From Dongia deserti (lineage in GTDB: Bacteria > Pseudomonadota > Alphaproteobacteria > Dongiales > Dongiaceae), in assembly GCF_003574735.1 (NCBI RefSeq), contig NZ_QORW01000004.1, positions 186,001-250,000 on the forward strand: a stretch of DNA of 64,000 nucleotides. Direction: 5' to 3'. A program made the translations under genes and the position numbers. This document shows, in pieces, positions 7,356-61,731 of the stretch (positions are counted from its first letter, which is position 1; each line of letters opens with the position of its first letter). The notes below the pieces were generated by a model that saw only the letters and a list, made by a program, of their open reading frames with translations, made no database searches and was not told the DNA's origin.

Positions 7356-7819
7356 GGCGCATCATGCTTGCCGTCCTGTCCTTGCTGTGCGCCGCGGATG
7401 CGCTGGCGCAACAACCGATCTGGGAACGCGGCCGCGACCGCCGCTATGAGATCGCGATCGCCGCCCTGGCGCCGGGCTCGACCCTCGGCTTCTTCTGCTC
7501 GGCCTATCAGGTGCCCAATACCGCGATCATCAGCCTGCACAACGTTGTCCTCAGCCCGCTCCTGCCGGACGGCAAGAACTTCGACCTGCGATTCGTGATT
7601 GACGGCGTGAAATACGATCTGCCCGGCATTGCCAAGGATGGCGAGCTGCTGGTCTCGCCGGCCGACGCCAACATGGAGCTGCGGGTGCAGGAGGTGTTGG
7701 AGGCCTTGCGTGCCGGCAAGAACGCCCAGATCGCCGTGCCGGCCAAGGCGTGGAAATCCAAGCTCCCCCTCGACGGCGCCGATTGGGCGCTCGACGGCGT
7801 GTTCGAGAAGTGCTGGTAG
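7352..7819 (+). CDS. Small secreted protein of unknown function
   Basis: This 155-residue protein begins with a clear signal peptide (MRRIMLAVLSLLCAADALA, likely cut before QQPIWERG) and is predicted to be periplasmic. The mature part has a mixed alpha/beta pattern with one Cys near residue 50 and a Cys-Trp at the very C-terminus, which could pair. I do not recognise the family. The start ATG overlaps the LysR stop as ATGA, so it is probably co-transcribed and translationally coupled with the regulator. A longer upstream reading of the same frame is a shadow of the LysR gene. A link to phosphonate sensing or uptake is only a guess from position. Confidence 0.7.
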   Translation: MRRIMLAVLSLLCAADALAQQPIWERGRDRRYEIAIAALAPGSTLGFFCSAYQVPNTAIISLHNVVLSPLLPDGKNFDLRFVIDGVKYDLPGIAKDGELLVSPADANMELRVQEVLEALRAGKNAQIAVPAKAWKSKLPLDGADWALDGVFEKCW

Positions 7820-7820
7820 C

Positions 7821-8120
7821 TTAGGCCACGAACCAGAAAGCAGACCAGGCGAGCACGGCCAACCTTGCGAACAGCGGGAAATTGCCGTGATGCCCATAGC
7901 GGTCGGCGCTGCGCCAGACGCCGACGGCTGTCAGGATCAGATAGGGCACCGGCAGCAGATGCACGATGGCCGCATAGGCGATCGGAACATCGAGCACGAC
8001 CAGGAACAGGGCGGCGACGGTCGTAACGATGTTGAGAAGCAGCCCATACAGGATGGCGTACTGCCAGAACGTGGTTTCAAGCGGCAGGTAGCCCTGCCAG
8101 AGAAGCTTCAGCTTTTGCAT
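7821..8120 (-). CDS. Small three-helix membrane protein of unknown function
   Basis: The 99-residue product has three hydrophobic stretches (about residues 18-43, 50-68 and 80-99), with an aromatic, basic N-terminus (LKLLWQGYLPLETTFW). It is very likely an inner-membrane protein. Two starts are possible, 8120 and 8132; I prefer the inner one because the sequence beginning MQKLKLLWQG resembles other small membrane proteins of this kind, but neither has a strong ribosome site. It ends one base after the convergent secreted-protein gene and lies downstream of the Na/Pi transporter on the same strand, separated by about 50 bases. Function unknown. Confidence 0.6.
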   Translation of the reverse strand: MQKLKLLWQGYLPLETTFWQYAILYGLLLNIVTTVAALFLVVLDVPIAYAAIVHLLPVPYLILTAVGVWRSADRYGHHGNFPLFARLAVLAWSAFWFVA

Positions 8121-8172
8121 GCCTGGGATCATAAGGCAGAGTGCCGGCCGGCCTTCAATCTCGATCTATGGA

Positions 8173-9822
8173 TCAGGCGTGCGCCTCTTCCTTGAGGCGC
8201 GAGGGATGCAGTTCGCCGGCTGCTTCGAGCCGCGGCTGGGCGACCAGCGCCAGGTGCGAGTTGATGCGCTTCAGGTCGCGCAGGATATCGAGGTGCAGGC
8301 CGGAGGTGGAGATGCTCTCGATCCGCCCCTCGCGCAGGCGCAGCAGGTGATTCTCCGACGCGGTCTTTTCCAGCACCCGGAAGACCTGCTTTTCCGCGAA
8401 CAGCTGGCGCGCGAGGGTGAGGTCCCCGGTCATGAAGACGTTCATGGCGAGCTGGACGTTGGCGTTGAGCCGGCGGTGGATATCCTCGATCTCCTTGGCA
8501 CCCTCGGCCGAGAATTTGAGGCCGTATTTGGTCTTCTTCGCCGCCAAGTCCATCAGGCTCTTGTCGACGATGTCCGCTGCATGCTCCAGGTTGGTGGTGA
8601 AGGTGATGAGGTCGATGATCTTCTTATGGTCGCCGGAATCCATCACGTCGCGGCTGACTCGCGTCAGATACAGCTTGATCGCCTCGTTCAGGCGGTCGAT
8701 CTGGCTGTCGACGTCAGAGCAGACATCGACCAGCCGCCGATCGTCCTGCTTGAAGACCTGTAGCGAGAGATCGAGCATCTGGCCCAGCAGATCGCCCATG
8801 CGCAGCGCCTCGCGGCTGGCATTGGCGAGGCCGATGGACGGGTTCTCGACCGCGCCCTCGGTGAGATAGCGTGCCTTCCCGGGATCGTCCGGCCTCTCCT
8901 GCTCCGGCAGCAGCTTGGCCGTCAGGCGCGAGACCGGCCCGATCAGCCAGATGAACAGGATGGCAAGTCCCAAGTTGAAAGCGACGTGGAAGTTCAGCAC
9001 CTGGCGCCAGGCTTCCGGCTGCAGGCTTGCGATCTCCGGCATGATGAAAGGCAGCAGCGGCAAGGCAATGACGACGCCGGCAACGCGGAAAATGAGATTG
9101 CCGACGGGCACACGGCGCGCTTCCGGCACGTTCGACATCGTCGCGATGATCGGCATGACCGCGCTGCCCAAGTTGGCACCCAGCACCAGCGAATAGCAGA
9201 CCTCGACCGGAATGAGATCATGGGTCGCGAAGGAGACGATAAGCAGGACGATCGCGAGGCTGGAGGTTGAGGCAATGGTGAGCACTGCCCCGACGATCAC
9301 GCCAGAGACAGGCGTGTTTTCCATCAGGCGGAGAATCAGCGGCACCACTGGCGCCTCGCGGATCGGCTCAGCCGCCAGGGTGATCATGCCGAGTCCGAGC
9401 AGCGTGATGCCGAGGCCGACGATGGCGCGCCCCAGGTCGCGCGTGCGCGTATCGGCCATGTGGTTGAACATGATGTAGCCGATAAGGATCAGCACGGGCG
9501 AGATCCAGGTCACCCGGAACGCGTAGGCCTGGGCGACAAGCGAGGTCCCGATATCCGCCCCTAGCATGATGGCGAGCGCGGCGCCCGCCCCCACCACCTT
9601 GCGCGAGGCAAAGGACGACGTGATAAGGGCTGTGGCGCTGGAGGATTGCAGCAGGATGGTGGCGCCAAGCCCGCCGAAGAGGGCGCTGAAGCGATTGCCC
9701 ATCACGCTGCCAAGGAAAGCGCGGAGGTGGCTGCCAAAGGCACGCATCACGCCGGTCCGGACCATGCGCAGCCCCCACAGGAGAAGCGCAGCAGCTCCGA
9801 AGAGATTGATAAGAAAGACCAT
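8173..9822 (-). CDS. Na+/phosphate cotransporter family protein with PhoU-like C-terminal domain
   Basis: This 549-residue inner-membrane protein has two inverted Na/Pi-cotransporter repeats. The first carries ILLQSSSATALITSS (about 57-70) and GADIGTS; the second carries STSSLAIVLLIV and GANLGSAV near 230. After roughly residue 320 a cytoplasmic, helical PhoU-like domain follows. Bacterial relatives such as YjbB act mainly in exporting excess phosphate or in Na-driven phosphate movement. Its place between the phosphonate catabolic operon and the phosphonate importer suggests it balances the phosphate released by PhnA and TmpB; that is inference. It has no copy of the shared 44-base operator upstream, so it may not belong to the same regulon. 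Confidence 0.85.
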   Translation of the reverse strand: MVFLINLFGAAALLLWGLRMVRTGVMRAFGSHLRAFLGSVMGNRFSALFGGLGATILLQSSSATALITSSFASRKVVGAGAALAIMLGADIGTSLVAQAYAFRVTWISPVLILIGYIMFNHMADTRTRDLGRAIVGLGITLLGLGMITLAAEPIREAPVVPLILRLMENTPVSGVIVGAVLTIASTSSLAIVLLIVSFATHDLIPVEVCYSLVLGANLGSAVMPIIATMSNVPEARRVPVGNLIFRVAGVVIALPLLPFIMPEIASLQPEAWRQVLNFHVAFNLGLAILFIWLIGPVSRLTAKLLPEQERPDDPGKARYLTEGAVENPSIGLANASREALRMGDLLGQMLDLSLQVFKQDDRRLVDVCSDVDSQIDRLNEAIKLYLTRVSRDVMDSGDHKKIIDLITFTTNLEHAADIVDKSLMDLAAKKTKYGLKFSAEGAKEIEDIHRRLNANVQLAMNVFMTGDLTLARQLFAEKQVFRVLEKTASENHLLRLREGRIESISTSGLHLDILRDLKRINSHLALVAQPRLEAAGELHPSRLKEEAHA

Positions 9823-9956: not shown

Positions 9957-11672
9957 TTAGCGATTCCGCCAGGCCTGGGTCCGGGCATGCAGCTTGCGCG
10001 ATGCGATCAGCTGCACGACCCGGGCGGTCGCGCTCACCATCACGATGATGGTGCCCATGGCGCAAGCGATGGCCGTATTGCCGGCATCGTCGGTGTTGAT
10101 CGCAGCGATCGACAGCAGCTTGGTGTCGCTGGAATAAAGGAAGATCACGGCCGAGACCGTCGTCATCGCATTGATGAAGTAATAGGCCGCGATATCCAGG
10201 ATCGCCGGCAGACAGACCGGCACCGTCACCCGCCAGAAGGTCTTGTAGAACGGCACCTTCAAGGAGGCGGAGACCGCCTCGAACTCGTTGTCCACTTGCT
10301 TGAGGGCGGTGACCGCGGTCAGATGGCACACCGTGTAGAAGTGCCCGACCGTGTTGACCACCAGGATGGCCATGGTGCCGTAGATGACGTTGAGCGGGTT
10401 CCCGGGCGCGTTAAAGAAGAAGATGTAGGCGAGGCCTAGGACCAGACCAGGCACGGCCAGCGGGATCATGGCGCCGAAATGTACCGCCGACCGGGCCCAC
10501 GGCCAGGTCTTGGTCTTCTCCACCAGATAGGCGCCGCAGAACACGATGATGGTGCCGACGAGCGCCACCAGGGACGCCATGATCAGGCTGTTCCACAGCG
10601 CGCCCCAGCCGACCGTGCCCAAGGCACCGAGATTGTATTTGCTGAGCGTGAGCGAAAGGTTGTACGGCCAGAACTTGATCAGGCTGCCGAACACCGCCAT
10701 GCCGAGGATGGACAGCACGAAGATCGAGACCAGCACACACAGAATAAGGCAGGCCGCATCGATGCGGGGGCGACGCGTGACCTGATAGGGCACCGCACGC
10801 GCCGAGAGCAGCGCCACCTGCTTGCGCTGCACCAACCGGTCCACAGCGAAGGAAAGAATGGCCGGCGCGAGCAGCAACAGGCCGACAACCGCGCCCATCT
10901 GGAAATTGAACTGGCCGATGACTTGGCGATAGACGTCGGTCGCCAGCACGTTGTACTGGCCGCCAATCACCTTGGGTACGCCGAAATCCGTGAAGACCAA
11001 AGTGAAGACGACGAAGGTCGCGCTCACCAACCCGTAGCGGCAGCCCGGCAGCGTCACGGTCCAGAAGATGCGAGACGGCTTGGCGCGCAGGGACTCCGCC
11101 GCCTCGTACAGTCTCTGATCGGCCGCCGACAAGGCCGTCACGATGATCATGACGGCGTGCGGCAGGGCGAAGAACACCTCGCCCATCACGATGCCGATCG
11201 GACCATAGACGCTGTGACCAAACAGCCAGCTCTTTAGGATGCCCTGGTTGCCGAAGAGATAGACCAAGGCCAGCCCTGGCAGCAGCGATGGTGCCAGCAA
11301 CGGCACCAGCGCGATCGACCGGAAGAAGGACCGGAATGGAATGGCACTGCGCGTGATCGCGTAAGCGAAGCCGAAAGCGAGCAGGATGGTGATGAAGGTG
11401 CTGATCAGCGCAACGGTCAGCGTGTTGTAGATCGACTGGACCAGCGCCGGATCCCTGAAATAAGCCGCGAAGTTCGCCAGCCCGATGAACTGGCCTTGCG
11501 CATTCTCAGCCGCCTTTCGGAACAGCACGGAGAGCGGGACGAGGACGGTGACCAACAGCCACGTGCCAAGGAGCAGGATCAGCAGGCGCTGCGCCCACTC
11601 CTCCGCGCCGGCAACCGGACGCACCAGACGCTGTGCCTGCAATGACGGTGATTGGACTGTGGCGTCAGCCAT
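9957..11672 (-). CDS. phnU: Phosphonate (2-aminoethylphosphonate-type) ABC transporter, fused double permease
   Basis: This 571-residue protein joins two inner-membrane permease domains, as in Fe3+/thiamine-type and 2-aminoethylphosphonate importers. Each half has about six helices and an EAA coupling loop: EAAESLRAKPSRIFW near residue 190 and EFEAVSASLKVPFYK near 465. It would form the membrane pore for PhnS-bound substrate with PhnT as the motor. Its start overlaps the phnT stop by eight bases. Because one polypeptide contains both halves, no second permease gene is needed. The fused form is the kind usually found beside phnW clusters; an iron or spermidine importer is the alternative, less likely here given the shared operator with phnW. 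Confidence 0.85.
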   Translation of the reverse strand: MADATVQSPSLQAQRLVRPVAGAEEWAQRLLILLLGTWLLVTVLVPLSVLFRKAAENAQGQFIGLANFAAYFRDPALVQSIYNTLTVALISTFITILLAFGFAYAITRSAIPFRSFFRSIALVPLLAPSLLPGLALVYLFGNQGILKSWLFGHSVYGPIGIVMGEVFFALPHAVMIIVTALSAADQRLYEAAESLRAKPSRIFWTVTLPGCRYGLVSATFVVFTLVFTDFGVPKVIGGQYNVLATDVYRQVIGQFNFQMGAVVGLLLLAPAILSFAVDRLVQRKQVALLSARAVPYQVTRRPRIDAACLILCVLVSIFVLSILGMAVFGSLIKFWPYNLSLTLSKYNLGALGTVGWGALWNSLIMASLVALVGTIIVFCGAYLVEKTKTWPWARSAVHFGAMIPLAVPGLVLGLAYIFFFNAPGNPLNVIYGTMAILVVNTVGHFYTVCHLTAVTALKQVDNEFEAVSASLKVPFYKTFWRVTVPVCLPAILDIAAYYFINAMTTVSAVIFLYSSDTKLLSIAAINTDDAGNTAIACAMGTIIVMVSATARVVQLIASRKLHARTQAWRNR

Positions 11673-53610: not shown

Positions 53611-54090
53611 ATGCACCACACACCCCAACTCGCCCTTCTCGTGTGCATTGCCTGCCTCGCAGGAGCTGCTGATAGCACGGCTGCCGGAACTTGGACCCTG
53701 CGCAGCCAGGATGGACAGAACGGCAAGATTTGCTCCCTCTCGACCACCGATCAGGGCCGCCCGTTCTCCATCTCCGTGTCACGCATTTCTCGGTCGACGG
53801 ACCAGGGCGTGGTCGGGGTCTTGTTCGAAGATCCGAAGGTCGTCCAGGCCGGCACGAAGACTCTTGCCAGGCTCGAATTCGACAATGGCACGAGCGGGAG
53901 CCATCGACTTGAAGCGAAGCCGGGTGGCGCTTCGCTGGTCCCGATCGTCGCCTCGAGCGTACAAGACTCGCTCCGGGCCTTTTCAGAGTCGCGGCGATTG
54001 ACAATCGTGACCCGCATCGGATCGACATCATTCAGCCTCGATGGGATCGCCGATCACGTCCCCGAACTGTTCCAGTGCGCCAGTCGCTAA
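53611..54090 (+). CDS. Small secreted protein of unknown function
   Basis: The 159-residue product has a signal peptide (MHHTPQLALLVCIACLAGAA, cut near STAAG) and a mature part of mainly beta character with one Cys near residue 41 (GKICSLSTT) and one near the end (FQCASR), which may form a disulfide. The segment SLRAFSESRRLTIVTRIGST then FSLDGI is reminiscent of invasion-associated-locus-B-like secreted proteins, but I cannot assign it. It follows moeA after nine bases with no clear ribosome site. Confidence 0.6.
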   Translation: MHHTPQLALLVCIACLAGAADSTAAGTWTLRSQDGQNGKICSLSTTDQGRPFSISVSRISRSTDQGVVGVLFEDPKVVQAGTKTLARLEFDNGTSGSHRLEAKPGGASLVPIVASSVQDSLRAFSESRRLTIVTRIGSTSFSLDGIADHVPELFQCASR

Positions 54091-54190
54091 GGCGCTCCAG
54101 ACGACAATTTGGGAGAGCCATCCGCGCTGGCCGGCCATTGCAAAGAGTTAGCGGTGCAGGCACGCTTCGGCAGCGGATTGGAGGAGGCTT

Positions 54191-55366
54191 GTGGCGACAG
54201 TCGTCGCAATTCTGGACCGGGATACGTGGTCGGCGCGCACCGACGTGATCGTCATTGCCGATCCGCTCGCGCGAAGCCTCACCTGGGTCCCGCGCGACTT
54301 GTGGTCCCCGTCGCTGTACGATCGGGTCAATGGGGCTTTTGCGTTGGGCGGAACAGCACGGCTGATCTCGGCCCTGCGCGAGCTTGGCTTTCAATGTGAC
54401 CATGCGATCGTGGTGCGCAGGCGCGCGACCGAAGCAGCTGCAGCGCATCTATCGGTCGATGTTCCTGTCTCCGAGCCGCTCGACTTCCTGTATCCGCTCG
54501 AGCCGACGAAACGGATTCAGGAAGGAAGCAAGACAGTATCCTTCCGTCCGCCCTGTGAACGGCTCGAGGGCGAGCGCATCCATCAATGGGTGGGAGCCCG
54601 CAGAGGACTGAGCCGGCTGGACTCGGACTTCGGCCGGATTCTCCGGCAACAGGTCTTTCTGCGTGCGTTGCTGAACCAAGGCTTCGATTTCGGCAGGGTC
54701 ATCCAGGACGACAGCCTCGTTCAGTTGTCGAGCGGCAATGCCATCGAGGAGCTCCGCCAGGTTCGTCCAGGTTGGGACATGACGTGCTTCGACCATGTGC
54801 GCCATGAGACGATCGACGGGATGATGGTGCTGATCAAGCAGGAGGGCGAGCAGCCGGAACGGCCGCGGCGCAACCACCCCGAACTCGCCGCCGTGGTGCT
54901 GGCGCGCGGTGCGCCGCGGAGAACCGTGGCCGCGGTCAGGTCGCTGCTCGCGCAGAATCCGGCGGTGGAGATCATGGTGGTGAATTCGGGCGGCGGCGAC
55001 ATGGGCAGGCTGTTGGCACGGCATGGTATCGACATTGCGGTCATCGACTGCGACGAGCGCCTGTCTGTGAGTGCGGCGCGGACTATCGGCGTCAGGGCGA
55101 CGCGCGCACCCTATGTTGCCTTTCTTCCGGCCGATTTCCTTGCGGCGCCCGGCTGGGCCAAGAAGCGGCTGAAGGCGCACCGCGCCGGCAAGGCCGCTGT
55201 GGGCCGGGACGTGCTTCGGTCTGCTCTTGGTAATCCGCCCGTGTTGGCGAAGCGTATCGCGATCTGGCTAAGGCGTCTGATGGGAATGCCTCACAAGCGC
55301 GCTTGGGGCGCATCGTATGAGCGGACCCTGCTTGAGAAGCATGGTGCATCTTGGGAAAGCGCTTGA
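54191..55366 (+). CDS. LytR-CpsA-Psr-like domain fused to a short glycosyltransferase-2-like domain
   Basis: The GTG start follows GGAGGAGG. Residues 15-160 show the LCP pattern: RTDVIVIADPLARSLTWVPR with PRD at 34-36, RVNGAFALGG, LEGERIHQWVGARRG and a late SDFGRILRQQVFL (145-157), which hold the conserved Asp and Arg residues. Residues 231-320 look like the start of a GT2 fold: LAAVVLARGAPRRTVAAVRS, VEIMVVNSGGGD and RATRAPYVAFLPADFLAAPG, though the usual DxD is PAD and the rest of the domain is missing. No signal peptide or membrane helix is seen, unlike normal LCP enzymes. LCP enzymes link glycopolymers to peptidoglycan or lipids; the role here is unknown. The 282 bases to the next gene hold nothing I can support. 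Confidence 0.65.
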   Translation: MATVVAILDRDTWSARTDVIVIADPLARSLTWVPRDLWSPSLYDRVNGAFALGGTARLISALRELGFQCDHAIVVRRRATEAAAAHLSVDVPVSEPLDFLYPLEPTKRIQEGSKTVSFRPPCERLEGERIHQWVGARRGLSRLDSDFGRILRQQVFLRALLNQGFDFGRVIQDDSLVQLSSGNAIEELRQVRPGWDMTCFDHVRHETIDGMMVLIKQEGEQPERPRRNHPELAAVVLARGAPRRTVAAVRSLLAQNPAVEIMVVNSGGGDMGRLLARHGIDIAVIDCDERLSVSAARTIGVRATRAPYVAFLPADFLAAPGWAKKRLKAHRAGKAAVGRDVLRSALGNPPVLAKRIAIWLRRLMGMPHKRAWGASYERTLLEKHGASWESA

Positions 55367-57451: not shown

Positions 57452-59080
57452 ATGAAACGTCTGCTCGCATCCGTTTCGATCGCCGCAATGGTGATCGCGG
57501 CGGCTCCAGTTTCGACACCCGCCTTCGCGGAAGCCAAGCAGGGCGGCGAGATGATCGTCACTTTCAAGGATGATCTCGCGACGCTCGATCCCGCCATCGG
57601 CTATGACTGGACCAACTGGTCGATCATCAAGAGCATTTTCGACGGCTTGATGGACTACAAGCCGGGCACCACCGAGCTGGTGCCCGACCTCGCCGAAAGC
57701 TACGACGTTTCCCCTGACGGGTTGACCTACACATTCAAGCTGCGCCAGGGCGTCAAGTTCCACAATGGCCGCGAGATGACGGCCGCGGACGTCAAGTATT
57801 CGCTGGAGCGCACCTGCAATCCGGCGACACAGTCACCAGGCGCCGGCTACTATGCAGCACTCAAAGGGTTTGATGAGTTCCAGGGCGGCAGCGCAAAAGA
57901 GCTGAGCGGCGTGCAAGTGGTCGATGACCATACGGTGAAGATCGAGCTGAGCCGGCCGGATTCCACGCTTCTGCATTTGATGGCGCTCAACTTTGCTTTC
58001 ATCGTGCCGAAAGAGGCCATCGAAGAATCCGGCGCGGACTTCGGCCGCAGCCCCGTAGGCACCGGCGCGTTCAAGCTCACGAACTGGACCGTTGGTCAGT
58101 CGATCACGCTGGAGCGCAACGCGGACTACTTCAAGGCCGGCATTCCGAAGCTCGACAAGATCACCTTCCAGATCGGACAGGATCCCGTCGTCAACCTGCT
58201 GCGCCTGCAGAAGGGCGAGATCGACATACCGGGCAACGGCATTCCGCCGGCGAAATTCACCGAAGTAATGAACGATCCGACCTGGAAAGAGCAGGTCATC
58301 GTCGCTGACCAGCTGCACACCGGTTACGTCACCATGAATGTCAACATCCCACCGTTCGACAAGGTGGCGGTGCGCCAAGCGGTGAATATGGCGATCAACA
58401 AGGATCGCATCGTCCAGGTCATCAACAACCGCGCGGTGCCGGCCAACCAGCCGCTGCCGCCCGCCATGCCGGGCTATGACAAGAGCTTCAAGGGCTACGC
58501 GTATGACGTCGCGGGCGCCAAGGCCAAGCTGAAGGAAGCCGGCCTCGAAGGCGGATTCGAGACCGACCTCTATGTGTCCAACACCGATCCGCAGCCGCGT
58601 ATCGCCCAGGCGATCCAGCAGGACCTCGCAGCGATCGGCATCAAGGCCAACATCAAGAGCCTTGACCAGACCAACGTGATCGCAGCGGGCGGCCGGAAGG
58701 ACGGCACGCCGATGCTGTGGTCCGGCGGCATGGCCTGGATCGCGGACTTCCCGGATCCAAGCAACTTCTACACCGCGATCCTGGGCTGCGGCGGCGCGGT
58801 CGATGGCGGATGGAACTGGGCCTGGTACTGCAACGAAGAACTCGACAAGCGCGCCGAGGAAGCCAACGCGATGACCGATCCGGCCAAGGAGGAAGAGCGC
58901 GCCGTCGCCTGGGGCAAGATCTTCACCGACCTGATGGAAGATGCGCCGTGGGTCCCGATCTTCAACGAGAAGCACTATCTGATCCACTCGAAGCGCATCG
59001 ATGGACCGGCCGGCGTGTTCGCCGACCCGATTCACATTCCGGTCAATTACGACGAAGTCTACGCAACCGACGCGCAGTGA
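57452..59080 (+). CDS. ABC transporter substrate-binding protein, family 5 (first of two)
   Basis: The 542-residue periplasmic protein has a signal peptide cut near AFA-EAKQG and the SBP family-5 fold: GYDWTNWSIIKSIFDGLMDY, PDLAESYDVSPDGLTYTFKL and RQGVKFHNGREMTAADV. It ends NYDEVYATDAQ. It is a close paralogue of the next gene; both share AEWYxDFPDPSNFY-like and GCGGAVDGGWNW-like stretches. A GC-rich stem-loop follows. The ligand is probably a peptide or other amide, given the amidase in the operon, but this is inference. Confidence 0.88.
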   Translation: MKRLLASVSIAAMVIAAAPVSTPAFAEAKQGGEMIVTFKDDLATLDPAIGYDWTNWSIIKSIFDGLMDYKPGTTELVPDLAESYDVSPDGLTYTFKLRQGVKFHNGREMTAADVKYSLERTCNPATQSPGAGYYAALKGFDEFQGGSAKELSGVQVVDDHTVKIELSRPDSTLLHLMALNFAFIVPKEAIEESGADFGRSPVGTGAFKLTNWTVGQSITLERNADYFKAGIPKLDKITFQIGQDPVVNLLRLQKGEIDIPGNGIPPAKFTEVMNDPTWKEQVIVADQLHTGYVTMNVNIPPFDKVAVRQAVNMAINKDRIVQVINNRAVPANQPLPPAMPGYDKSFKGYAYDVAGAKAKLKEAGLEGGFETDLYVSNTDPQPRIAQAIQQDLAAIGIKANIKSLDQTNVIAAGGRKDGTPMLWSGGMAWIADFPDPSNFYTAILGCGGAVDGGWNWAWYCNEELDKRAEEANAMTDPAKEEERAVAWGKIFTDLMEDAPWVPIFNEKHYLIHSKRIDGPAGVFADPIHIPVNYDEVYATDAQ

Positions 59081-59151: not shown

Positions 59152-60753
59152 ATGTCGCGTTACCTGATGCCGCTGTTGGCAGGCCTGATACTGGCCTCGC
59201 CTCTCGCGCTTGCCGACGAACCGAAGCGCGGCGGAGAGATCACGATCATCTATCGCGACGATTTCGATTCGATGGATCCCGCCATCGGCTATTCGTTCCA
59301 GAGCTGGACGCCGATCAAGGCCGTGTTCGACGGCCTGGTGGACTACAAGCCAGGCACCACGGAGATCGAGCCGGACCTGGCCGAGAGCTACGAGATCTCC
59401 CCCGACGGCAAGACCTACACCTTCAAGCTGCGCCAGGGCGTCAAGTTCCACAATGGCCGTGAGCTGAAGGCGGCGGACATCAAGTATTCCATCGAGCGCA
59501 CCTGCAACCCGAAAACCCAATCGCCCGGTGCGAGCTATTACACCGGCATCATCGGCTGCCAGGACATCATCGACGGCAAGGCGACCGAAGCGAGCGGCAT
59601 CACCACGCCGGACGACTACACCGTGGTGTTCCAGCTGACCGAGCCGAACGCCACCATGCTCCACCTCTTCGCGCTGAACTTCGCATTCGCCGTGCCGAAA
59701 GAAGTGGCGGAGGAGTACGGCGAGGACTTCACCCATCACGGCGTCGGCACCGGCGCCTACAAGATGGTCGAATACACGCCCGGCCAGCGCGTCGTCCTGG
59801 AGCGCAATCCCCACACCGACAAGGATGGGCGGCCCTACATCGACAAGATCACGCTGCAGTTCGGTGTCGAGCCGGTGACCGGCGTGCTGCGCATCGAGAA
59901 GGGCGAGGCCGACACGTTGGGCGAGATATTCCCGCCGGCAAAATATCTGGAGGTCTCGCAGAACCCGGCCGTCAAGGGCCGTTTCCTGACCGTCGGCCAG
60001 CTTAACACCAACTACATGAGCATGAATTTCAACATCAAGCCGTTCGACGACCTGCGGGTGCGGCGCGCCGTCAACATGGCGGTCAACAAGCAGCGCCTGG
60101 TGCAGGTGCTGAACAACCGCGGCACAGTCACGGGCCAGATCCTGCCGCCCGCCATGGCTGGCTTCAATCCTAAGTTCCAGGGCTATCCCTATGATCCCGA
60201 GAAGGCGAAGGGGCTGCTGAAGGAAGCGGGCCTGGGCGACGGCTTCACGACCGAGCTGTACTTCCAGAACGTCGATCCCTGGCCGCGTATGGCGCAGGTC
60301 ATCCAGCAGGACCTCGCCGCCATCGGCATCAAGGTCGAATTGCGCGGCCTCGAGATGGCGAGCCTGTTCGGCACCGCGGGCAAGCCCGACGGCGCGCCGA
60401 TGGCCCTGACCGAGTGGTATGCCGACTTCCCCGACCCCAGCAACTTCTACACCGCGATCCTGGGCTGCGGCGCCGCGGTTGAAGGCGGCTTCAATTGGTC
60501 GTTCTATTGCAACGAGGACATCGATGCGCGGGCCAAGGCGGCCGACGCCCTCGCCGATCCGGCGCGGGCGCAGGAGCGGATCGATGATTGGTCGAAGATC
60601 ATGATCGACATCATCGAGCAGGACGCCGCCTGGGTACCTTTGTTCAACTCCAACCGCTTCAGCCTGCGCTCGGCGAAGCTGAAGGGTGATGAGACCATTT
60701 TCACCGACATCATTAGCCAGCCCTTCAACTTCGAAGCGGCGTGGGTCGAGTGA
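59152..60753 (+). CDS. ABC transporter substrate-binding protein, family 5 (second of two)
   Basis: The 533-residue product has a short signal peptide (cut near LALA-DEPKR) and the same fold as its neighbour: GYSFQSWTPIKAVFDGLVDY, PDLAESYEISPDGKTYTFKL and TEWYADFPDPSNFYTAILGC. The two copies are clearly a tandem duplication that has diverged, so they probably bind related but different ligands for one permease pair. An AAGGAGAACTGA site precedes the ATG. It ends 21 bases before the amidase gene. Confidence 0.88.
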   Translation: MSRYLMPLLAGLILASPLALADEPKRGGEITIIYRDDFDSMDPAIGYSFQSWTPIKAVFDGLVDYKPGTTEIEPDLAESYEISPDGKTYTFKLRQGVKFHNGRELKAADIKYSIERTCNPKTQSPGASYYTGIIGCQDIIDGKATEASGITTPDDYTVVFQLTEPNATMLHLFALNFAFAVPKEVAEEYGEDFTHHGVGTGAYKMVEYTPGQRVVLERNPHTDKDGRPYIDKITLQFGVEPVTGVLRIEKGEADTLGEIFPPAKYLEVSQNPAVKGRFLTVGQLNTNYMSMNFNIKPFDDLRVRRAVNMAVNKQRLVQVLNNRGTVTGQILPPAMAGFNPKFQGYPYDPEKAKGLLKEAGLGDGFTTELYFQNVDPWPRMAQVIQQDLAAIGIKVELRGLEMASLFGTAGKPDGAPMALTEWYADFPDPSNFYTAILGCGAAVEGGFNWSFYCNEDIDARAKAADALADPARAQERIDDWSKIMIDIIEQDAAWVPLFNSNRFSLRSAKLKGDETIFTDIISQPFNFEAAWVE

Positions 60754-60774
60754 TCATCAAGACGAGGTGACGTG

Positions 60775-61731
60775 ATGCGCCATAATCATCCGCACGGGCC
60801 GGTCAACACCATCCACAGCCACCAGCACCATATCGGCTGGAACAACGCCTTCCCGCCGACCGCCAAGGCGGCCCCTGGCGATGTGCTGGAGTTTGAGTGC
60901 CTCGATCCGTCCTGCGGACAGATCACGCCGGACTGGAAGGCGGCCGATCTCGCGCGGCTGGATTTCGGGCGCATCAATCCGACCCTCGGCCCCATCGAGG
61001 TGGATGGGGCCGAGCCGGGCGATGCGCTGCGCATCACGTTCCTCGGTTTCGAGAACAACGGCTGGGGCTGGACCGCCAACATTCCCGGCTTCGGCCTGCT
61101 GGCGGACCAGTTCAAGGAGCCCGGACTTCACATCTGGAAATACGATGCCAGCTTCTCCACGCCCGCGATGTTCGGCGGACTGGCGGCGGTGCCGATGAAG
61201 CCGTTCTGCGGCACCATCGGCGTCGCACCGGCCGAACCAGGGCTGCATTCGGTCGTTCCGCCGCGCCAGGTCGGCGGCAACATGGACATCCGCGATCTCT
61301 CGATCGGCACGGAACTGTTCCTGCCGATCGAGGTCAAGGGCGCGCTGTTCTCGATCGGCGACCCGCACGCCGCGCAAGGCGATGGCGAGGTGTGCGGCAC
61401 CGCGATCGAGACGCAGCACAAGGTCACGCTGAAGCTCGACCTGGTCAAAGGCGCGAACTTGAAGATGCCGCGCTTCCGCACGCCGGGACCGGTGGCGCGC
61501 CATCTCGACGAAAAGGGCTACGACGTGACCACCGGCATCGGCCCCGATCTCATGACCGGTGCGCGTGCTGCGGTAAGCGGCATGATCGACCTCCTCACCG
61601 CACGCCACAACATCTCCGCGCTCGAGGCCTACATGCTGTGCTCCGTCTGCGCCGACCTCCGAATCAGCGAGATCGTCGACATGCCCAACTGGGTGGTGAG
61701 CCTGTACTTCCCGCGGGTGGTGTTGGATTGA
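60775..61731 (+). CDS. Acetamidase/formamidase family amidohydrolase
   Basis: This 318-residue protein belongs to the FmdA/AmdA family, which hydrolyses short amides to ammonia and an acid. Motifs include the GDVLEFECLDPSCGQI start, LGPIEVDGAEPGDALRITF, PPRQVGGNMDIRDL and GDPHAAQGDGEVCGTAIET, with metal-binding Asp and His residues. I begin at the ATG at 60775, which has GAGGTGACG before it; a GTG one codon upstream is possible. Its place between ABC transporter parts suggests that the imported compound is an amide cut in the cytoplasm. Confidence 0.9.
   Translation: MRHNHPHGPVNTIHSHQHHIGWNNAFPPTAKAAPGDVLEFECLDPSCGQITPDWKAADLARLDFGRINPTLGPIEVDGAEPGDALRITFLGFENNGWGWTANIPGFGLLADQFKEPGLHIWKYDASFSTPAMFGGLAAVPMKPFCGTIGVAPAEPGLHSVVPPRQVGGNMDIRDLSIGTELFLPIEVKGALFSIGDPHAAQGDGEVCGTAIETQHKVTLKLDLVKGANLKMPRFRTPGPVARHLDEKGYDVTTGIGPDLMTGARAAVSGMIDLLTARHNISALEAYMLCSVCADLRISEIVDMPNWVVSLYFPRVVLD

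Follow-up and report, generated by a model that had tools for sequence, protein, structure and literature searches.

An apparently cytoplasmic LytR-CpsA-Psr domain fused to a truncated GT2 domain in Dongia deserti, and its GT2-linked relatives

The window, a stretch of 64,000 nucleotides from Dongia deserti, encodes on its forward strand (54191-55366, GTG start, 391 aa) a protein in which an apparently cytoplasmic LytR-CpsA-Psr (LCP) domain is joined to the N-terminal half of a GT2 domain; the chances are about even that it is a cytoplasmic LCP-superfamily enzyme working with a small GT2 pathway. A functional link between the LCP domain and two groups of GT2 proteins, GT2-1 and GT2-2, is well supported by recurrent fusion, operon-like or adjacent gene arrangement and co-occurrence. 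The LCP domain (residues 1-217; 54191..54841) is followed by a charged linker of ~12 residues (54842..54877), seen in the sequence and matched by low model confidence at ~222-232, and by a GT2-1 subfamily N-terminal half of GT-A fold (54878..55363), which is assigned from PF00535, AF2, Foldseek and the alignment of relatives and ends before the ED motif. Both domain calls had been proposed in an earlier note, and profile searches place each above its Pfam cut-off; residues 30-163 match PF03816 (LytR_cpsA_psr; 30.8 bits, E 3.9e-7, cut-off 24.6) and residues 246-338 match the N-terminal part only of PF00535 (41.5 bits, E 1.7e-10, cut-off 23.3). A spurious domain call is ruled out by profile, fold and conservation.

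LCP domains belong to a cell-wall-attachment class of enzymes, known as outward-facing attachers of glycopolymers and usual on the outer side of the membrane in Gram-positive bacteria. LCP enzymes are typically anchored, with the domain predicted to be extracellular (PMC7831098). The window protein has no apparent transmembrane or signal segment, its hydropathy maximum being 1.31 (19 residues, over all 391 aa), as the earlier note had read it. A strong Shine-Dalgarno sequence, GGAGGAGG (54180-54187, +; direct reading), lies 3 nt 5' of the GTG, and the relatives in the family alignment start at the same residue; the start is therefore placed at 54191 and an N-terminal anchor is absent, which excludes one having been missed. 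No anchor precedes the LCP domain in the relatives inspected, the uncertain case being a MAG labelled Deltaproteobacteria (L058:1199-2317), where a region resembling a response-regulator receiver comes after the LCP domain and the protein would gain a possible lipoprotein signal from a longer start, leaving the location uncertain. From the missing anchor, the fixed start and the fusions to nucleotide-sugar enzymes in several lineages, the LCP domain is apparently cytoplasmic. The earlier note was right to find this layout odd for a Gram-negative genome. A 2008 survey placed LCP proteins in eight phyla and described them as absent from Proteobacteria save for a fragment in Plesiocystis (PMC2632651); a 2021 review lists the same phyla (PMC7831098).

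The LCP half is modelled by AF2 from 24 family rows with pLDDT ~95 over most of its length; the two halves were modelled separately, as a combined whole-protein alignment put GT rows onto the LCP half. In Foldseek, the best 13 PDB matches, which are every PDB match with E <0.001, are all LCP (E 2e-10 to 2e-6) and include TagT bound to octaprenyl pyrophosphate (4de9) and to wall teichoic acid precursors; profile matches are to MsrR, TagV, TagU and TagT. PF03816 is matched by 15 of 16 family members (E up to 1), and the NCBIfam TIGR00350 cut-off of 62.3 bits is missed by the window protein (31.0 bits) and by the Mesorhizobium and Devosia members (18 bits). The PRD and SDFGR-RQQ marks named in the earlier note are present at residues 34-36 and 145-154 (SDFGRILRQQ). 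Three arginines, Arg35 of the PRD (codon 54293..54295), Arg137 (54599..54601) and Arg149 of the DFGR (54635..54637), are invariant in 24/24 rows and correspond to TagT R118, R219 and R227; this pairing comes from a family-profile alignment, with the TagT residues numbered by a count along its motif and without structural superposition. The three TagT residues are discussed as catalytic, and Actinomyces oris LcpA R149 and R266 (equivalent to TagT R118 and R227) are needed, as judged by mutation (PMC6381275, PMC7831098). The Mesorhizobium LCP genes are under purifying selection (median dN/dS 0.21, 45 pairs).

The canonical YxRxR motif is altered in this family: the position of TagT R217 is glycine in all members. 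The loss of one of the two arginines of this motif would suit a non-catalytic binding or scaffold domain, which would carry out no phosphotransfer but hold pyrophosphate-lipid-linked intermediates or simply dock the GT2 proteins to the membrane, and the basic, tryptophan-containing C-terminal tail of the stand-alone Mesorhizobium proteins (PWWRRQLRRLRDRLKGK) could be a membrane-binding helix serving the same role. Such a domain is considered a doubtful but real possibility; the invariance of the three arginines that are tied to catalysis in TagT and A. oris LcpA exceeds what a docking surface needs and counts against it.

The GT2 half is modelled with its own relatives at pLDDT 80.8, its Foldseek matches are GT2 structures (e.g. 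ArnC, GtrB and TarP), and it is 43-49% identical to the GT2-1 rows. Together with full-length relatives it matches MftF/EpsD-like GT2 families (PF00535) and the GT-A fold, scoring far below the NCBIfam equivalog cut-offs; unlike those enzymes the subfamily has A-x-D in place of DxD, and both the ED base and the C-terminal half are missing from the window copy. The DxD metal-binding motif is replaced by PAD at residues 313-315 (55127..55135, from the alignment to relatives), which the earlier note took for a reduced DxD; a reduction peculiar to this gene is not upheld, because each full-length relative inspected also lacks the first D (AAD, ASD, AQD, ADD or EGD), so that a PAD-like motif is the norm of the GT2-1 subfamily. 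Full-length relatives run on into GED(T) and a C-terminal part, while the window copy ends before the GED and is therefore missing both the ED catalytic base and the acceptor-binding C-terminal half; the tblastn match extends only to 55447, no gene was seen between this ORF and the next, downstream transporter gene, and no GED-like continuation was found in the other forward frames after 55340, which rules out a frameshift or sequencing error behind the short GT2. In the retained part 32/38 conserved columns are kept, against 38 of 39-42 in the other distant rows tested. Since it ends before the GED and keeps fewer conserved columns, the GT2 half is most likely inactive as a glycosyltransferase, and with the ED base and C-terminus being lost it is probably a vestigial or docking part.

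The same features raise the question of whether the whole gene is in decay, as what is left of an LCP-GT2-1 fusion that once worked, has since lost the C-terminus of its GT2 part and now serves no function. The missing ED region and the lower column count both agree with this, as do a third-position GC below that of most neighbouring genes (0.74-0.76 vs 0.81-0.87) and the degraded LCP copies in several Mesorhizobium genomes described below. This is held to be rather unlikely, as the LCP half is intact with all family-invariant residues, the ribosome-binding site is good, the frame is open for 391 codons and the genome still has full-length GT2-1 and GT2-2 partners.

These partners lie on another contig of the window genome (C3 of G000), where GT2-2, full-length GT2-1 and a PhyH-type dioxygenase gene stand side by side; the C-terminal part of this GT2-1 contains a hydrophobic stretch (hydropathy 2.13). 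Within its own lineage, PF03816 is found in the window genome alone among 143 relatives, a strong GT2-1 match in it alone among 96 relatives, and GT2-2 in it and G003 only among the 96. Apparent LCP matches in G349 and G382 appear antisense to clear genes and were discarded. A second GT2-2 homologue is carried in another cluster of the window genome (L170:7187-7936, contig C8), beside ORFs that by eye are HPr-kinase-like and PqqD-like. Within the window, an ORF of 159 aa lies just 5' of the LCP gene (53611-54090, +); its N-terminus may be a signal sequence, and it has no Pfam or NCBIfam match; 3' of the gene, also by eye, tandem related solute-binding-protein-like ORFs (57452-59080 and 59152-60753, +) sit in a peptide-type ABC transporter cluster, and the ORF at 60772-61731 resembles an acetamidase/formamidase.

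A GTDB genome scan found 26 loci with cytoplasmic LCP relatives, mostly in Mesorhizobium and also in Devosia, Bauldia and MAGs of other labels, and the survey for LCP-GT2 fusions called for in the earlier note showed the pairing recurring in these genera and others, either fused in other orders or adjacent. The LCP-GT2-1 order is that of the window; the reverse order, GT2-1-LCP in one frame, occurs in Devosia (L039 and L041) and in two Mesorhizobium genomes including M. mediterraneum (L046 and L047), and in L037 the LCP domain is fused to GT2-2. In Bauldia (L055) GT2-1 (7500-8357), another GT2 (8389-9270), GT2-2 (from 9261) and LCP (9986-10681) form one operon-like run, and in L057 the LCP, GT2-2 and GT2-1 genes are adjacent. 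In the LCP tree the window protein clusters with L037 and L057 (95/99) and the GT2-1-LCP fusions fall elsewhere, in keeping with fusions that arose separately. The contig labelled Burkholderiales (L059) shares its fusion protein region with the Devosia contig L039 and is thus probably mis-binned; equal caution is due with L037, labelled Aminicenantes, and L057, labelled Thermoleophilaceae. No relatives were found in viral contigs or phage records, which rules out a viral or phage origin of the window gene, and a plasmid search gave weak partial matches only. The loci examined show no flippase, polymerase or initiating transferase next to the LCP/GT2 module.

Directly 5' of the GT2-1-LCP fusion in L039 (6024-9146), and likewise in L046 and L047, is a gene for a protein of ~1,040-1,067 aa. 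In the L039 copy the protein has TPR repeats and ends in a GT-D-like domain (PF22882), and its N-terminal part matched nothing. GT2-2 proteins (L018:1992-2732, -; L055:9261-9962, +; L163:10100-10840, +) are ~235-250 aa with a conserved IDPDER-like motif; they have no Pfam match, and one tested had no NCBIfam match, while the L037 relative matches PF13704.

In Mesorhizobium the LCP gene is usually found on its own, a short way downstream of a tRNA-Pro gene, and is not linked to the GT operon. GT2-1 and GT2-2 genes are found together, usually with a third GT2, and in most loci examined they are flanked by a DUF2126/ATP-grasp cluster on one side and a topoisomerase IB gene on the other. A substantial LCP is present in 20/146 genomes, one of which (G830) has an LCP covering only residues 3-118 and a GT2-1 that is also partial. 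GT2-1 accompanies it in 20/20 of these genomes against 24/126 others (Fisher p 9e-13, kinship ignored), or in 18/18 when the two genomes with GT2-1 as the fusion itself are left out (p 7e-12, kinship ignored); GT2-2 is present in 17/20. Fragmentary or internally deleted LCP copies are seen in L060, L061, G800, G441, G843, G855 and G877, and the gene appears to be decaying in the genomes that carry such copies; G851 keeps both GT2s with an LCP fragment only. A full GT2-1 is found in 19/19 genomes with an intact LCP versus 2/7 with a degraded one (p 3e-4, kinship ignored), in a split drawn after seeing the data that counts G830 as degraded and leaves out G871 for its incomplete assembly. The dependence runs one way: 24 Mesorhizobium genomes have GT2-1 but no substantial LCP, so LCP is not essential to the GT2-1 pathway, and this persistence of GT2-1 in genomes without LCP is also what a binding or scaffold role would allow.

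The earlier note had suggested a new way of making glycans, and the link to glycan synthesis holds through independent fusions, operon-like runs and co-occurrence; resting it on the window GT2 half does not, given the C-terminal truncation and lost base. As the catalytic base is gone from that half, the glycan-making reading rests on the LCP domain and full-length GT2 partners elsewhere. In the pathway chemistry that we infer for the LCP enzyme and its GT2 partners, the GT2 proteins would assemble a short glycan on the inner side of the inner membrane, with undecaprenyl-PP or a comparable pyrophosphate-linked molecule as carrier; the LCP domain would grip the carrier pyrophosphate through Arg35, Arg137 and Arg149. 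It may then transfer glycan-phosphate to an acceptor at the cytoplasmic face, whether protein, lipid or a second glycan; alternatively it may hydrolyse or hold the carrier-linked intermediate. The fused GT2-1 half of the window protein is probably vestigial or without catalytic activity, and the pair at work in this genome would be the GT2-1 and GT2-2 of contig C3. The more specific reading, a class of cytoplasmic Gram-negative LCP phosphotransferases that move glycan-phosphate from a GT2-made pyrophosphate-linked donor onto protein, lipid or glycan inside the cell, is tentative and falls somewhat short of probable. It is very improbable that the domain is instead an LCP-type hydrolase, recycling or proofreading cytoplasmic pyrophosphate compounds such as nucleotide sugars and prenyl-PP and supplying the GT2s instead of passing on what they make; nucleotide-sugar hydrolases are usually of other folds, which counts against it, while nucleotide sugars are within reach of a cytoplasmic protein and characterised LCP enzymes show pyrophosphatase activity (PMC6381275). 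For the transfer reading, A. oris LcpA is a close comparison: it glycosylates the protein GspA and shares the essential Arg149 and Arg266 (LcpA numbering) with the window family, but unlike this anchorless family it is membrane-anchored, extracellular and disulfide-stabilised (PMC6381275). Because LcpA moves glycan-phosphate to protein, LCP chemistry need not target peptidoglycan, and transfer of this type would make sense for a cytoplasmic LCP.

With TagT, TagU, TagV, MsrR of S. aureus and Cps2A the window family has in common the LCP fold (PF03816), the equivalents of TagT R118, R219 and R227, and the D..R..RQ helix. Unlike them it is without an N-terminal transmembrane helix or apparent extracytoplasmic domain, is found in Alphaproteobacteria linked or fused to GT2, has glycine for the motif arginine and a hairpin before the PRD that is ~4 residues shorter, and falls below the TIGR00350 cut-off. 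We class it as a variant branch within the LCP superfamily rather than as an LCP glycopolymer transferase, since it has neither the anchored, extracellular topology nor a score reaching the NCBIfam cut-off. Open-licence papers yielded no description of an LCP that is cytoplasmic, rhizobial or GT-fused, and the LCP and GT2 pairing looks like an undescribed glycan-making partnership. The module is small and testable (LCP, GT2-1, GT2-2 and often a third GT2), occurs in genetically tractable rhizobia, and gives a context for the GT2-2 family, most tested members of which have no Pfam or NCBIfam model. A conserved anchorless LCP branch with intact arginines and GT2 fusions, if true, would extend LCP chemistry or binding to the cytoplasmic face; should the phosphotransferase reading be true, LCP chemistry would have been relocated from the outside to the inside of the membrane.
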